Origin: a virus
DNA length: 32,985 nucleotides
Strand: one strand, 5' to 3'
Virus record (IMG/VR): IMGVR_UViG_3300044691_000414
Coordinates: 1-32,985 of that record
Shown: piece by piece, positions 5,843 through 32,961 of the stretch
Numbering within the stretch: position 1 is the first letter of the stretch
Layout: the number at the start of each line of letters is the position of its first letter
Notes under the pieces: generated by a model
The model's database searches: none
What the model saw: only the letters and a program-made list of their open reading frames with translations
What the model was told of the DNA's origin: nothing
Program-made: the position numbers and the translations under genes

Positions 5843-6340
5843 CTAAATCCACCTGTAAACAAGTTCTGCTGTGTTGAGACCGGCGTCGTAAAAAGGTCCG
5901 GTACTGTCGGTGACGTACTGGTCGCCTTGATTGTTATTCACTAGCCCGATTCCACCCGGAAAGGGGGCCGCGGCGTGGACACAGAAACTATTCAGTCCTT
6001 GGACGCTCTGCGTACCACCACTCGTAGGATCACCAGGAGTTCGGAAGTCCATAAAGGTGGAGGTCGCTGGATACTCAGTATCAAGCTGAACGTTTGGGAT
6101 TCGTCCTGCAATCGTGGTGATAACGGCAGTCTGCCTGATACCGAGATTCATCGCGCCTTGGACTGGGACACCTGCTGAGCTACCAAGTCCGTGTGTGACG
6201 TGACCATTACTGTCGATGATGCCGAAGCCCGCAAGCGTGAGCATGTTGATCGGCGTTCCATCGCCGAAGCACATCGTTCCATCATTGTTAATAGTCAGAA
6301 TCGGCACGTTGGCCGTTTCATCCCGGACAAGAATAGGCAT
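5843..6340 (-). CDS. Stalk-like tail protein, R-D-E-T-A family
   Basis: A 165-residue protein. Its N-terminus (M-P-I-L-V-R-D-E-T-A then I-L-T-I-N-N-D-G ... F-G-D-G-T-P-I-N-M-L-T-L-A-G) matches the N-terminus of the protein at 6703-7056 and more weakly that at 6340-6699. The N-x-G-x-x-x-(F/L)-G-x-x-x-P-x-x-x-L-x-x-x-G pattern resembles the short stalk repeat found in trimeric fibre proteins that precede intramolecular chaperone domains, but no chaperone domain is present here. The C-terminal part is glycine-, asparagine- and proline-rich with no recognised domain. The ATG at 6340 overlaps the preceding TAA by one base. Probably a distal tail or fibre component. Confidence 0.65.
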   Translation of the reverse strand: MPILVRDETANVPILTINNDGTMCFGDGTPINMLTLAGFGIIDSNGHVTHGLGSSAGVPVQGAMNLGIRQTAVITTIAGRIPNVQLDTEYPATSTFMDFRTPGDPTSGGTQSVQGLNSFCVHAAAPFPGGIGLVNNNQGDQYVTDSTGPFYDAGLNTAELVYRWI

Positions 6341-12575: not shown

Positions 12576-14873
12576 TTATGATTTCCGCTGCGACGGCGGG
12601 GTGCGTCGTCGATCCTGATTCTGCGAGCTGATGGTGCTGGCCGCAATGTGCGGAGCAGCGGCCTGGATACCACGCATTACTTGCACGCGCGTCTGAGCGG
12701 GATCGGTTGAACCGCTCGCATCGATGTTGATTACGTGACCGGAGCTGCCGCCGATGTTCAGCTTGTGATTCGGAATGATCGTCCCGCTCGTACCCGGATT
12801 GAACAGCTCGGGACCTTGCTCACCTACGATCGCTGGCCCGTTGATGGGACCACCGGACGCGAGGAATGGGATCATGCCGGTGAGGGTAGAGGCGATTGTG
12901 CCTATGCCGGAAGAAGGATCACTCGCGATGCCCAGGGCTGTACTCAAACCCGCCTGACCTGTACCTTTGCTGCCGCCTCCGAAAAGCTTGCTGATGAAGC
13001 TACCGGCTGAGCCGATTGCGTTACCAACACTCTCTGCGGAACGAGTCCACATAGGATTCGCCTGCGTACCCATCTTTGCGGAGCCGCCGAAGCCGAACAT
13101 GCCGAGTACTGAACCCTCGGCCTTCTGAAGACCGGTACCTGCTACTGATCGGGCCAGACCTGCACCATAGTTACCGAGTGCTTGACGATTCTGAAGACCT
13201 GTCGAGTGTGGTGTGGTCATTATCTTCAACAGAACATCATTGAAGCCATTGATGGCGCTGGCTGTGAATTCACCCATCTGTTTCGCAGCGTCACGAGATG
13301 CGATGACGAACTCATTGAGAGCGTCAGTCGCACCTACCAAGCCAGATGAGGCCGCTGGATTCGTGGTCTGCTCGTCCTGGGCTATCTGAAGACCGCGTGA
13401 TCCATTCAAACCATTAACACGGTTTGTGTTGTCTTGTAGAGCAGCTTTACGTGCAAGTTCGTTGCCGTTGTATTGAGGGTCTTTGGAGATTGCTTCGCGC
13501 TGATCTTGAAGATCCTGTAGAGCCTCTTTGTAGTCCGCCGTGTGCGTGGTGGCGAGGACTTGAGCAGCGTTCAGCTGCGTCATCCGTCCAGTTTGAACGG
13601 CCATCTGTAGAGACGCTGCCGCAATAGAGTCAGCATTCTGTTTGTTGAGCGCGATGCTCTCACGTAGAGAAGTGATGTAAGCGTTGGCACCATTGCCCTG
13701 TTGGCTTAGGCTCTTGCTGTCATCAGAGGAGAGGAAATTCGTCTTGAATTTCTCACGATTATCCTCGCTGAAGATCTTGGCGTTTTCGTCCTCATACGCT
13801 TTCCACTTCTGAGCTATCTCACCATCCACCTCCAACATCTTGGTGAACTCTTCAGCAGCTTTCTTGCGTGCTTCGGCGGCTTTGATAGCGGCGGCATGTG
13901 AAACTTCGGCAGCTTTGTTCTGCGCGGTGAGCTGACCGTTCTTGTCCTGGGCAGCCTGATCTCCCTGCTGGTCATTGATGACCCCGCGCATACCGAGCAG
14001 TATGTTCCTGTTGCCCGCCTGATCGCCACCCATGACTCCATCACCGTCGACCGCGTATTGCGGATTATCGACGAGGAAGAGCTTGTTGGTGACCCACTTT
14101 TGGTAGTAGTCCTGCTTGTCTGAAAGAGTCTTTAGAGCTGCCTTTGCTTCAGGGCTCGCAGCGCCATGGTCACGGACGGCAGAGGCGTTCGCGTTGCCCA
14201 ACCGAGCTATCTCATCCATTCCGTAGTTGGCGGAACCTGTGATGTTACCGGTGCGCGACTGATTGGTGAGGAACCCGCCGAGAGCACTAATCTTGTTCTG
14301 CTCTAGGAGAGACTTGAATGCCTTCGCGTCATTCTCCAGAGACTTCGCAAGACCATCGGCCTTGATTCGTGCTTCGTCAAGCTGGATTGCGAGGTTATTC
14401 TGTGGTTTGCCTTGGAGTTTGTTGATCGAATTCTGGAGTGTGTCGTTGGCGAGACTGAGCGAGTCCTTGGCTGATGCGGCTGCCAAGTGAAGGGACGCAA
14501 ATCCCTGCTCAATAGCCTTTGGCATCTTGTTAACTTTGTCGATGAACTCGGCGACCTTCATGCCTGCGTCGACGATCATCGCGCCGAACGCAGCTCCGCC
14601 GATGAGCGGAAACGCTGCCTGAAGAACTTTGCCTACGCCGGGGATCGTGGTGATGAAGCGCTCGACCGCACGGGTGTTCCGCGTGAAGTCGCCATTCATT
14701 TCCCGAATGGCTGCCGATGACGCTTGCATCGAGGAGACGGTCGAGTGGCCAGCCTGCTTGGTCTTTCCAGCAAACTCGTCAATCTGACGCTGTGCCTGCT
14801 TGAGCGCTTCAGTGTAGGTGACAGCGTTCAGACCCAGAACGATATTTACGCCACCCGCTGCATCAACGCTCAT
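12576..14873 (-). CDS. Tail tape measure protein
   Basis: A 765-residue protein. The N-terminus has the classic helical start (A-L-K-Q-A-Q-R-Q-I-D-E-F-A) and the central part is long and helical with alanine and glutamine enrichment. A hydrophobic stretch occurs near residues 75-105. The C-terminus carries the hallmark L-A-S-G-G-P-I-N-G-P-A-I-V-G-E-Q-G-P-E-L-F followed by N-H-K, seen at the ends of many tape measures. It lies between the gp10-like gene and the tip genes and is the longest gene of the tail-assembly block. Tape-measure length scales with tail length, so this predicts a tail of roughly 100-120 nm (inference). No lysozyme-like insert was seen. Confidence 0.93.
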   Translation of the reverse strand: MSVDAAGGVNIVLGLNAVTYTEALKQAQRQIDEFAGKTKQAGHSTVSSMQASSAAIREMNGDFTRNTRAVERFITTIPGVGKVLQAAFPLIGGAAFGAMIVDAGMKVAEFIDKVNKMPKAIEQGFASLHLAAASAKDSLSLANDTLQNSINKLQGKPQNNLAIQLDEARIKADGLAKSLENDAKAFKSLLEQNKISALGGFLTNQSRTGNITGSANYGMDEIARLGNANASAVRDHGAASPEAKAALKTLSDKQDYYQKWVTNKLFLVDNPQYAVDGDGVMGGDQAGNRNILLGMRGVINDQQGDQAAQDKNGQLTAQNKAAEVSHAAAIKAAEARKKAAEEFTKMLEVDGEIAQKWKAYEDENAKIFSEDNREKFKTNFLSSDDSKSLSQQGNGANAYITSLRESIALNKQNADSIAAASLQMAVQTGRMTQLNAAQVLATTHTADYKEALQDLQDQREAISKDPQYNGNELARKAALQDNTNRVNGLNGSRGLQIAQDEQTTNPAASSGLVGATDALNEFVIASRDAAKQMGEFTASAINGFNDVLLKIMTTPHSTGLQNRQALGNYGAGLARSVAGTGLQKAEGSVLGMFGFGGSAKMGTQANPMWTRSAESVGNAIGSAGSFISKLFGGGSKGTGQAGLSTALGIASDPSSGIGTIASTLTGMIPFLASGGPINGPAIVGEQGPELFNPGTSGTIIPNHKLNIGGSSGHVINIDASGSTDPAQTRVQVMRGIQAAAPHIAASTISSQNQDRRRTPPSQRKS

Positions 14874-26585: not shown

Positions 26586-27092
26586 TCAATCTTGGTGTCT
26601 ACTTACTAATGCCTTTGAAGGGGCATTTCGTAACGCTGTCTTGCGAAATCGTGACAGTCTATTTCTGAGGGCTGCGCTGCTGATGTTCAACTGGCCGGCG
26701 ATCTCGACCAGACTGTGACCCTGTAGCAGCTTGTCCGCCACTATGCGAATGCCATTAGGCAATCTGGATGTGTCCACGTATCCATCGTCAGTTGGGCTCT
26801 GACCAGCATCTTCATCGAAGACCTGGGTGTGATCCGATGATGTGCGATAGGCGTCCAATCGCGTCCGCCTAATTATCGAGTTCACCCATTTGCTGAACCC
26901 AGTGGCATCTGATCGAACGAATGTCTCCAGTTTGTCCAGGACGACGATGCAGACGTTCTGAGCCACATCTTCATCCCGTGTCAGTCGCAGAGCCTCTGAT
27001 CTGACACCTGCGACCAGCCCGTCCGGAGACGGTACTGATCGAGGCGAAGCCCAGTATTCGGCGTAGAGCGTATCGAGTGTCTCAGCTGACAT
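26586..27092 (-). CDS. RNA polymerase sigma factor, ECF-like
   Basis: A 168-residue sigma-70-family protein. Region 2 runs from about residue 28 to 85 (L-T-R-D-E-D-V-A-Q-N-V, then F-S-K-W-V-N-S-I-I-R-R-T-R-L-D-A-Y-R), and region 4 is the C-terminal helix-turn-helix at about 115-150 (A-D-K-L-L-Q-G-H-S-L-V-E-I-A-G-Q-L-N-I-S), ending in basic residues. Regions 1 and 3 are missing, as in ECF factors. The gene shares 11 bases with its upstream neighbour. Phage ECF-like sigmas could direct late transcription, but target promoters are not visible. Confidence 0.8.
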   Translation of the reverse strand: MSAETLDTLYAEYWASPRSVPSPDGLVAGVRSEALRLTRDEDVAQNVCIVVLDKLETFVRSDATGFSKWVNSIIRRTRLDAYRTSSDHTQVFDEDAGQSPTDDGYVDTSRLPNGIRIVADKLLQGHSLVEIAGQLNISSAALRNRLSRFRKTALRNAPSKALVSRHQD

Positions 27093-30046: not shown

Positions 30047-30913
30047 TCAGATCTCTTCAGTTGGTGCTGGGTCAACTGGCACAGGTGTGAGTTCGTTGCA
30101 TGGCGACTCACTTAGGATCTCCACAATCTGCGGATATCCAGGTTCTGAGTTAAATCTGACGAGGTAACAGTGGTGTCTGTGCAGACAGCTGATCACTGCC
30201 TCAGAGCCATAAGCCCGGGCTTTGAATGTGAACGCCCCAAGCGACTGATCGAACACGTCAAATGTCACACTGTGATGGATCTTGCCGATCCGCTGTGAGC
30301 GGTAAACGTGAATTGTGACCGAGTCACCTGAGGCTGGGTACAGAGATGAGGATCCACCCTTAATCTTAGATTTACCAACTTTGCCGCTTCGAAAACCTCG
30401 ATCGGTCTTCGATGGCGACTTGCCGGCCGCTTTAGCTGCCTTGTCCACGCTCTTCAGTATTCGGGTCTTCTTACCCCTCACCCAACCGAGATCGACCCGA
30501 ACCGAGACTTTTGAAGAAACCGTGATGTAACGCTTCCATAGGTCCACGTTTTCGATTGGTTTTCCATCCCGATTGCACCACCTTTGCTTCCGCCAGGTTT
30601 CTGGTCGCTTATGGTGGTCGTATACATACTTGGAGTCAGTGAACAACTGCACCCGCTGCACACCTAGCGCGCGTCCCTGTTCCGCTATCCACTCGAACGC
30701 GTGAATGCAGGCGGAAAGCTCCATGCGGTTGATAGATGATTCGAGGTACCCGACCGAGAACATCAGCGACTCATCCGGCAATCCTGAAGCGTCAGGATAT
30801 CTCGCTACGCACGCATAACCACCGGCCCCACCTGGATTCTTGTAGGAATTGCCATCAACGTATAGGTGGAGCGCATGCGGATCTTCCTGCAATGATCCCC
30901 CGTAGAGCTGCAA
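30047..30913 (-). CDS. RNase H type I with C-terminal extension
   Basis: A 288-residue protein. Residues about 15-165 are a ribonuclease HI domain, which cuts RNA in RNA-DNA hybrids. The acidic catalytic set is visible: D20 in Y-V-D-G-N-S, E65 in N-R-M-E-L-S-A, D93 in F-T-D-S-K-Y-V, and D157 in S-V-D-K-A-A-K-A-A. After a basic linker (about 165-190) comes a 95-residue domain of unknown type with strands (V-T-I-H-V-Y, F-T-F-K-A-R-A-Y), not part of classical RNase H. The start at 30913 is a TTG with a weak ribosome site; a second TTG seven codons on, with GGGGGA upstream, is possible. The region around the start has a TACAAT box. Confidence 0.85.
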   Translation of the reverse strand: MQLYGGSLQEDPHALHLYVDGNSYKNPGGAGGYACVARYPDASGLPDESLMFSVGYLESSINRMELSACIHAFEWIAEQGRALGVQRVQLFTDSKYVYDHHKRPETWRKQRWCNRDGKPIENVDLWKRYITVSSKVSVRVDLGWVRGKKTRILKSVDKAAKAAGKSPSKTDRGFRSGKVGKSKIKGGSSSLYPASGDSVTIHVYRSQRIGKIHHSVTFDVFDQSLGAFTFKARAYGSEAVISCLHRHHCYLVRFNSEPGYPQIVEILSESPCNELTPVPVDPAPTEEI

Positions 30914-31280
30914 CTCGATATTGTATCGTCCGCTACTCGCCAGGTTCTCCGCGGCTGGACGCGATTCTGCCTAACCGGTCAGTGAACAGCTTGTAAGGGG
31001 AGGCCAGACTACAAGGGTGGACCGCATGACAACGTGTGAGGCAGTAGGAGTCTTCCAGCCATAAGTACACCGGCGTCCACGCATAAGTAGTGAGGCTGAA
31101 AAGCTGGGATTTGGGTTGTCCACGCATGAGTACATAGGTTTTCCACGCATAAGTAGAAAGCTAACCGCGCGTATGTCATTGGTAAATAAGGTATGTAGCT
31201 TTTCGCTGGCCGGCTATCGACACACATCCTTTGGTGGGGGTCAGCAGATAGACAGAATAGACGAAGAGGAACAGATAGCC
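30914..31280. promoter_or_regulatory. Control region between RNase H and the HTH gene
   Basis: This 367-base divergent region contains the four iterons and no gene I can support. Small open frames on the minus strand here are created by the repeats themselves (repeated Y-L-C-V). It should hold promoters for the leftward RNase H gene and the rightward HTH gene. A TTGGTA at about 31180 is a possible -35 box, but no matching -10 stands out. Confidence 0.55.
31054..31155. repeat. Four phased 14-bp iterons, consensus TCCACGCATAAGTA
   Basis: Copies lie at 31054-31067 (TCCAGCCATAAGTA), 31076-31089, 31119-31132 (TCCACGCATGAGTA) and 31142-31155. Start-to-start distances are 22, 43 and 23 bases, so all copies fall on the same face of the helix at multiples of about two turns. 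They precede the small HTH gene at 31281. They could be binding sites for that protein, integrase arm sites, or origin iterons. Confidence 0.85.
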
Positions 31281-31535
31281 ATGAGCAAGATTAAGAAAGC
31301 CTGCCGCACATACCCGAACGTCCATGATGATTCAGTTCCCTTCTCCGTCGCTGAGCGGATCGAGCGTCACCGGGGATTGCTGGCCGTCGACGAACTCTCT
31401 CCTTTGCTTGGCATGTCTCCCAAGACCATTTACGCCTGGGTGGCCGCGGGAACGCTCCCAGCGGTCAGGATGGGATCGTCGGTCAAGTTCTGTCCTCACA
31501 CGACAGCACAGTGGCTACGAGCCCGGTCAGCCTAG
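31281..31535 (+). CDS. Small HTH protein, excisionase/AlpA-like
   Basis: I use the ATG at 31281, with a GAGGA stretch about ten bases upstream; a longer frame from 31116 would run through the iterons. The 84-residue product has the compact HTH_17/excisionase pattern in its second half: L-A-V-D-E-L-S-P-L-L-G-M-S, then K-T-I-Y-A-W-V-A-A-G-T-L-P-A-V-R-M-G and a final W-L-R-A-R. This class acts as recombination directionality factor or transcription regulator. It is convergent with the integrase gene, 11 bases apart, supporting a role in integration/excision. Confidence 0.85.
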   Translation: MSKIKKACRTYPNVHDDSVPFSVAERIERHRGLLAVDELSPLLGMSPKTIYAWVAAGTLPAVRMGSSVKFCPHTTAQWLRARSA

Positions 31536-31546
31536 TTCTGGAGGGG

Positions 31547-32767
31547 TCAGCGCCAGCGAATGGCGTTGACCTTCTTCTGCACTTCTACACCACCGGCAGG
31601 ACGCAGATATCGCATTACGGACTCCAAATCCGCATGTCCAGATAAAAGCATAACCGTGCGAAGGTCCATTCCTTCACGCAAGAGTCGCGTGATGAACGAT
31701 GCTCTGAACTTGTGGAGATACCAGCGTTCACATTCTGACCCTTCGCTTGCCACGCACGTACCGCACTCGCCACAATTGAGACCAGCCATCTTTGCGAGTC
31801 CCTTGAGACGCCGAAGTAGATGCCCGTCTGGTTGATCTTCTAGGCCGCCCCGAGTGCCGAATACGAGCCTACAATCTGGATGCTCTTTCCTGTACGCCTG
31901 TAGCTGCTTGACGACCGAAGTCGTCAGCGGCATTTCACGCTCTTCTGAATCTTTGATCTTGTGGTTGTAGCGAGGCTTCGATTTCACCTGAAGAGTCTTG
32001 TGCGCGTAGCTGAGGTCACCCCACTCCAAATGCATTGCTTCCCTCTCCCGAAGTCCAGTAGTCAGAAGCAGATCGAACAGCAGCTTGTCATAGTCAGTTG
32101 TCAGCGATGCGAAGAAGGTCTTGAGTTCCCCCGGCTCGTATATCTCAGGCAGAGTCTTCTCAAACTTGGGAGCGATCCTGCCAGCGATGGATTTGACCTG
32201 TTCTACCGTGAACCCGAGGGTGAGGATGAAGCTCCTGAGAGCCATGTGGCGATTGTGGATCGTCCGGTCAGACAATCCCCGCTTACGCATTTGCCCATGG
32301 AACTTTAGGATGTCATCGTGGATGAGTTCGTCAGCATACGTCTTATTGCAGCCGGATAGGAACTCCTCCAACGTTCTCTCGTAAATCTCGCTGGCTTCTT
32401 TAGAGCCGCGGTCGAACGCGGCCAGGGCAAACTTCTTGGCCTCATCCCGTAGAGCAATGCGCTTGGGATCGAGCACAACTGCCACACCGGCGTCACCGGC
32501 CAGCGCAACGGCGTTGGCCCGCTTCTGAGCCACCTTGAGCGCGGCCAGGGCCTCCGTGGCACCGCCAGTCAGCCTCGTCCATACCAGCTTCGAACCGGAG
32601 TATGACCGAAACTCGTAGTGACCGACCTCGTATACGCGCTCGGCACCGTCGGCGATGACGGTGTCCGGCTTGACTCTGCCATTGGCCGACATCGCAACCG
32701 GGAACCGCTTCCAAGAACCGTCATCCGTCTTGCACTTCCGTACCAGCGAAACCCGCTTGTTTGCCAT
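31547..32767 (-). CDS. int: Tyrosine integrase
   Basis: I use the ATG at 32767 (M-A-N-K-R-V-S-L-V-R-K), with AGAGGA upstream; the in-frame start at 32836 adds 23 residues reaching across the promoter region. The 406-residue protein has a basic arm-binding N-terminus, a core-binding domain (about 105-200) and the catalytic domain with R240 (T-G-L-R-E), H352 and R355 (H-K-F-R), H378 (S-G-H-A-D) and Y387 (M-R-Y-L-R-P). An insertion with four cysteines (332, 335, 338, 346) sits just before H352 and may bind zinc. It catalyses integration and excision of the phage DNA at the attachment site. Confidence 0.93.
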   Translation of the reverse strand: MANKRVSLVRKCKTDDGSWKRFPVAMSANGRVKPDTVIADGAERVYEVGHYEFRSYSGSKLVWTRLTGGATEALAALKVAQKRANAVALAGDAGVAVVLDPKRIALRDEAKKFALAAFDRGSKEASEIYERTLEEFLSGCNKTYADELIHDDILKFHGQMRKRGLSDRTIHNRHMALRSFILTLGFTVEQVKSIAGRIAPKFEKTLPEIYEPGELKTFFASLTTDYDKLLFDLLLTTGLREREAMHLEWGDLSYAHKTLQVKSKPRYNHKIKDSEEREMPLTTSVVKQLQAYRKEHPDCRLVFGTRGGLEDQPDGHLLRRLKGLAKMAGLNCGECGTCVASEGSECERWYLHKFRASFITRLLREGMDLRTVMLLSGHADLESVMRYLRPAGGVEVQKKVNAIRWR

Positions 32768-32826: not shown

Positions 32827-32961
32827 GTGAAAACACTGGAACAAATGACGATTGATAGAGAATCCCTCACTCTCCGCCATTTTTTTGAGTCGACGACTTA
32901 CAAGGTTTGTACACTTTCTGTTACAGATTGTGCAGGCGTAATCGGGATCAGTCGCGCTTGA
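32827..32961 (+). CDS. Small ORF spanning the candidate att core
   Basis: A 44-codon frame with a strong ribosome site (AGAGGAG five bases before a GTG at 32827) and a TGA at 32959-32961. The product begins V-K-T-L-E-Q-M-T-I-D-R-E-S-L-T-L-R-H-F-F and includes the candidate attachment core within its coding sequence. It is divergent from the integrase. It is unrecognised; it may be a real small gene whose 3' part changes on integration, or a chance frame behind a good ribosome site. Confidence 0.45.
   Translation: MKTLEQMTIDRESLTLRHFFESTTYKVCTLSVTDCAGVIGISRA
32860..32879 (+). other. Candidate attachment core (tRNA 3' end)
   Basis: GAATCCCTCACTCTCCGCCA fits positions 57-76 of a tRNA exactly: G57 A58 A59 T60 C61 of the T-loop, a five-base T-stem strand, a seven-base acceptor strand, discriminator G and CCA, followed by TTTTTTT. 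The bases before it do not form the rest of a tRNA. This is the usual appearance of the partial tRNA copy left by integration into a tRNA gene (Ser type by its acceptor end). It lies 93 bases from the integrase start. Confidence 0.72.

Follow-up and report, generated by a model that had tools for sequence, protein, structure and literature searches.

To our knowledge, very little is known about the control of replication in phages of the Acidobacteria, a dominant phylum in soil. The iterons of plasmid Rep proteins are non-palindromic units which follow each other at a step of two helical turns. Origins of the lambda type carry four iterons in lambda itself and six in the Stx phages (PMC7466680). 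The direct repeats to which excisionases bind are arranged head to tail, with sites normally one helical turn (10-11 bp) apart rather than two, and Apl of phage 186 acts far from att, binding both att and the early promoters (PMC7498355). Here we describe a phased repeat array which is laid out like a lambda-type origin, but which we do not class as one, since the linked initiator was looked for in an incomplete record and was not found.

The window, by which we mean the whole stretch of DNA analysed, is a 32,985-bp IMG/VR virus contig which encodes head, packaging and tail proteins as well as an endolysin, and is part of an Acidobacteriaceae prophage. The closest integrase, 87% identical, is found in an Edaphobacter MAG (locus L007 of genome G001). 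Homology between the window and this sister prophage ends at 32880, inside GAATCCCTCACTCTCCGCCA. This sequence forms the 3' end of a tRNA-Ser(CGA) gene and occurs on the G001 contig at 14422 and 40677, with an intact tRNA gene at 40677; the end of homology and these copies together place the window's right attachment site at 32861-32880. No tRNA genes were found in the window and the left attachment site with the intact tRNA lies outside the record, which means that the left side of the prophage is not complete. As attachment core, members of this integrase family (window, G001, G369 and G343) use tRNA-Ser 3' ends, and paired core copies bound prophages of approximately 26, 48 and 14 kb (G001:C166:14422/40677, G369:C6:262242/310613 and G343:C7:54331/68576, respectively). 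The sister prophage in G001 has, at its left end (L088, 9487-10745), a DNA methyltransferase-like gene adjoining a possible restriction endonuclease gene, as judged from the translation only. The early region of the window encodes a small sigma-70-like factor (26586-27092), while a 314-residue ion-channel-like gene (663-1607; Pfam Ion_trans_2, 2.7e-13), which may be either cargo or chromosomal, lies beside the endolysin gene. The array and the features around it are as follows, with the copies scored against the consensus TCCACGCATAAGTA:

30047-30913, minus strand: RNase H gene with a C-terminal extension, reading away from the array and probably starting with a TTG near 30892
30933-31247: segment for which no relative was found; RNase H homology ends at 30932 and HTH-leader homology begins at 31248
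31054-31067, plus strand: iteron 1, TCCAGCCATAAGTA, 12/14 to the consensus
31076-31089, plus strand: iteron 2, TCCACGCATAAGTA, 14/14
31098-31111, plus strand: vacant rung of the 22-bp ladder, best match at most 5/14
31119-31132, plus strand: iteron 3, TCCACGCATGAGTA, 13/14
31142-31155, plus strand: iteron 4, TCCACGCATAAGTA, 14/14
31150-31189: most AT-rich 40 bp adjoining the array, 62% AT versus a window mean of 45%
31164-31177, plus strand: possible degenerate fifth iteron, ACCGCGCGTATGTC, 9/14, exactly 22 bp past the fourth
31281-31535, plus strand: HTH_17/excisionase-like protein of 84 residues, tail-to-tail with the integrase gene
31547-32767, minus strand: tyrosine integrase of 406 residues
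32861-32880, plus strand: attachment core at the 3' end of the tRNA-Ser gene, GAATCCCTCACTCTCCGCCA, where homology with the sister prophage stops

The 14-bp unit, TCCACGCATRAGTA, is present in four copies in the 33-kb record, all on the plus strand and starting at 31054, 31076, 31119 and 31142; the steps of 22, 43 and 23 bp between them agree in full with those given in an earlier, sequence-only reading. That reading described a regular ladder of five with one site missing, and a vacant rung is indeed present at ~31098, between copies 2 and 3, but when the degenerate copy at 31164 is counted the ladder has six rungs rather than five, with a fitted step of 21.9-22.0 bp. Only ~0.2% of the 14-mers in the window score as well as the 31164 copy (9/14), and its membership of the ladder is suggestive, not proven. 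There are no further copies of at least 12/14 elsewhere in the 32,985-bp window and no extra sites were seen at the half-step of the ladder, while the units are non-palindromic, with the best dyad pairing only three of the 5-6 conserved positions. When 100 windows were simulated at matching dinucleotide content, the maximum was two 14-mer copies (at least 12/14) per 130 bp, versus four in the real window. The array thus consists of iterons in tandem on one strand at a regular step of two turns, a ladder not found in simulated sequence, and its phased layout is confirmed as real; this regular spacing fits with the earlier proposal that the array serves a cooperative DNA-binding protein.

The array lies between the leftward RNase H gene and the rightward HTH_17 gene, and ends ~126 bp upstream of the start of the latter. 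Its earlier placement in the control region of the HTH gene is therefore correct in so far as it is upstream of that gene, but as it is also upstream of the RNase H gene on the opposite strand, the control region is a divergent one. The description of the 84-residue HTH protein as excisionase-like was supported by its matches to NCBIfam TIGR01764 'excise' (34.5 bits versus a cut-off of 28.8) and to PHROG 66. The C-terminal extension of the RNase H protein (~110 residues) is conserved between the window (30047-30913) and loci L064, L065, L066 and L068, and RNase H with this extension is present in 16/398 family genomes, with a frameshifted relict in G343. An RNA element at the array was rejected (fold z-score of 0.07, no Rfam matches), as were DnaA boxes: TTWTNCACA is absent from the window, and TTTTCCACG and TTGTCCACG, which overlap copies 4 and 3 respectively, match at only 7/9 positions.

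Integrase relatives were found in 150/398 family genomes, and the convergent HTH gene accompanies the majority of the nearest relatives. The tail-to-tail integrase/HTH_17 pair recurs in Acidobacteriaceae integrative elements (L006, L007, L018, L020, L031, L032, L042-L044 and others). An array of comparable score was absent from all 18 other tested loci with this HTH gene; the window scored 39 versus a maximum of 22 among these 18 loci, and shuffled controls mostly scored 23 or less. This includes L007, where no array is present upstream of an HTH gene encoding a 67% identical protein, next to the 87% identical integrase and in a near-identical neighbourhood. The array was also absent from the RNase H relatives, and the idea that it is tied to the RNase H gene was rejected because the G343 relict, in which RNase H is 82-87% identical, shares sequence with the window only as far as 30932. 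The TerL relatives (0.95 Mb of IMG/VR loci, most of which cover the early region partly) contained neither a non-coding ladder nor an O-like gene. With the array absent from the HTH, RNase H and TerL relatives alike, the segment from 30933 to 31247 is without a known relative. No IMG/VR contig contained two units at a 22-bp step, there was no match among the INPHARED phages to the 2986-bp region, the integrase or the HTH protein, and unit matches in the sister MAG were attributed to chance (17 versus 19 for a reversed-pattern control). The expectation that related prophages would carry the same repeats at the same spacing was thus not borne out, as none of the relatives carries them.

Ladders were also searched for independently of unit sequence, in 1.45 Mb flanking integrase relatives plus 0.4 Mb taken at random from family chromosomes; repeats stepping by a multiple of 3 were treated as coding and set aside. 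These 1.85 Mb yielded just two further ladders with steps unlike those of coding repeats, and randomised sequence yielded none. One is in L126 (14292-14369, steps 22-22-22) and lies within an O-like gene, while the other is in L068 (10482-10607, steps 22-24-22-22-22), directly 3' of a gene for a 191-residue O-like initiator with PHROG replication-initiation matches (1.7e-6); in L068, an RNase H relative is present alongside the ladder. Searches of the 398 genomes with the L126 and L068 initiators identified L143, L145, L146 and L147, all of which have 4-6 non-palindromic direct repeats inside the initiator gene, mostly at 22-24 bp steps. The L145, L146 and L147 proteins match PHROG replication initiation, L145 weakly, whereas the L126 and L143 proteins match a PHROG family of unknown function and are grouped as O-like by their similarity to other O-like proteins. 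Overall, ladders with 22-24 bp steps are present in 6/8 O-like loci (L126, L143, L068, L145, L146 and L147), and a clean 22-bp ladder was absent from the O-like genes of the other two (L064 and L094). As L126 is related to L143 and L146 to L147, these represent approximately four independent ladder families. The units are ~10-15 bp and non-palindromic and differ from ladder to ladder, and we consider these six ladders candidate lambda-type origins. In G184 (L064), the gene order is integrase, HTH_17, O-like initiator (PHROG 270, 2.4e-13) and RNase H, whereas in the window it is integrase, HTH_17, array and RNase H, placing the array in the slot of the L064 initiator.

The association of ladders with initiators and the synteny with L064, both of them indirect evidence, lead us to favour an iteron-type phage replication origin as the function of the array, a reading to which we give roughly an even chance of being right. 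The repeats would serve as same-strand docking sites, on one face of the DNA and two helical turns apart, for a phage-encoded initiator of the lambda/O type, the protomers of which would bind the rungs cooperatively and wrap or bend the DNA. The AT-richer stretch by the last rungs would then be opened and the host helicase recruited. The array in the window would work like the family ladders of O-like initiators, and the initiator itself may have its gene in the left end of the prophage that was not sequenced, be an unrecognised protein, or be supplied in trans. The iteron number is in line with an origin, given the four of lambda and six of the Stx phages (PMC7466680), and if initiators are specific to each element the unit is expected to differ per element, in keeping with the window unit not being conserved. 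With regard to the evidence on the other side, neither an O-like gene nor a remnant of one was found in the window, searched with a profile of seven family O-like proteins and by tblastn, or in the G001 sister prophage. The region at 31150-31189, with 62% AT over 40 bp, is a weak candidate for unwinding. The two O-like loci without a clean ladder (L064 and L094) and the match of the L126 and L143 proteins to a family of unknown function also weigh on this side. As the TerL relatives and the sister prophage lack a ladder, the replication module would also have to have been swapped. An origin, one of the functions suggested earlier, thus has indirect support from the ladders which accompany O-like initiators in the same family, but not from an initiator in the window. 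A stand-alone origin with an initiator unlike O, DnaD or Rep seems improbable; in such a case the HTH_17 protein could double as the initiator, or the prophage could have retained just the docking array and use the initiator of another resident element, while the neighbouring RNase H would take part in priming.

The main rival to the origin reading, which we regard as possible but doubtful, is an early operator array, at which a phage repressor or activator would bind cooperatively to control the divergent RNase H and HTH_17 promoters. The array is located between two divergently transcribed genes, same-face spacing suits cooperative regulators, and a comparable divergent control region in L094 contains an array with steps of 33, 21 and 23 bp (6217-6320). 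The L094 array is made up of palindromic TACGCACA-N-TGTGCGTA units, adjoins an operon in which a DnaC-like gene accompanies that of an O-like initiator, and is probably a repressor operator. The window units, however, are non-palindromic, unlike most sites of dimeric phage repressors, none of the genes searched in the incomplete record was recognised as that of a repressor, and the other promoters of the record have no further copies. A scan also found no sigma-70-like promoter in the array region, with the proviso that promoters of Acidobacteria may not fit the scan.

Binding of the array by the 84-residue HTH_17 protein, for autocontrol or as a second excisionase site like that of Apl, is unlikely. 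The protein is excisionase-like and its gene is close by, and head-to-tail direct repeats are what excisionases bind, with Apl as precedent for action away from att (PMC7498355); however, their sites are one turn apart, and the window lacks both half-step sites and unit copies near the attachment core, while neither L007 nor the other tested HTH loci have an array. An excision complex, one of the possibilities raised in the sequence-only reading, is the least supported of excision, origin and cooperative binder. The attachment core, which in this record is that of the right side, has no unit copies and is separated from the array by 1.7 kb, and the 22-bp step contrasts with the 10-11 bp of excisionases (PMC7498355). 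Such an array should also accompany the conserved HTH gene, whereas the prophage with 87% and 67% identical integrase and HTH proteins is without it. Lastly, a plasmid-type partition centromere or other structural DNA element is very improbable: direct-repeat arrays form some phage and plasmid centromeres, and some mycobacteriophages are reported to carry an additional parS locus containing five direct repeats (PMC7157519), but none of the window genes tested was recognisably ParA- or ParB-like, and a normal integrase is present together with a tRNA attachment site.

If the array is a true origin, it offers a cis element for testing in a lineage of phages without a recognisable initiator. Since O-like initiators with 22-24 bp ladders and element-specific units are usual in the Acidobacteriaceae, such ladders may also provide a simple way to find origins.

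When compared with known systems, the array shares direct repeats with the arrays of excisionases and other RDFs (Apl of phage 186, lambda Xis and Pukovnik Xis) and with BldC filaments, and as with the former an excisionase-family gene adjoins it. The sites of these excisionases and of BldC are at most one helical turn apart versus two in the window, and excision sites are located at the attachment site rather than 1.7 kb away from it; as one-turn spacing and a location at the attachment site were both looked for and neither was found, we do not class the array as an excisionase array. In step and type of unit it resembles the iterons of plasmid Rep proteins, but no Rep-family initiator was found in the window. 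Lambda-type origins have the O gene linked and the iterons inside the initiator gene, whereas the window array is intergenic in a record in which no O gene was found, has a weak AT-rich flank, and its units are not imperfect palindromes; the likeness lies in the 4-6 same-direction repeats on one helical face in an early region. The O-like ladders of the Acidobacteriaceae differ from it in unit sequence and in being located in or beside a recognisable initiator gene, but have in common with it the ~10-15 bp non-palindromic units, the 22-24 bp steps, the 4-6 copies, the occasional longer gaps and the host family.
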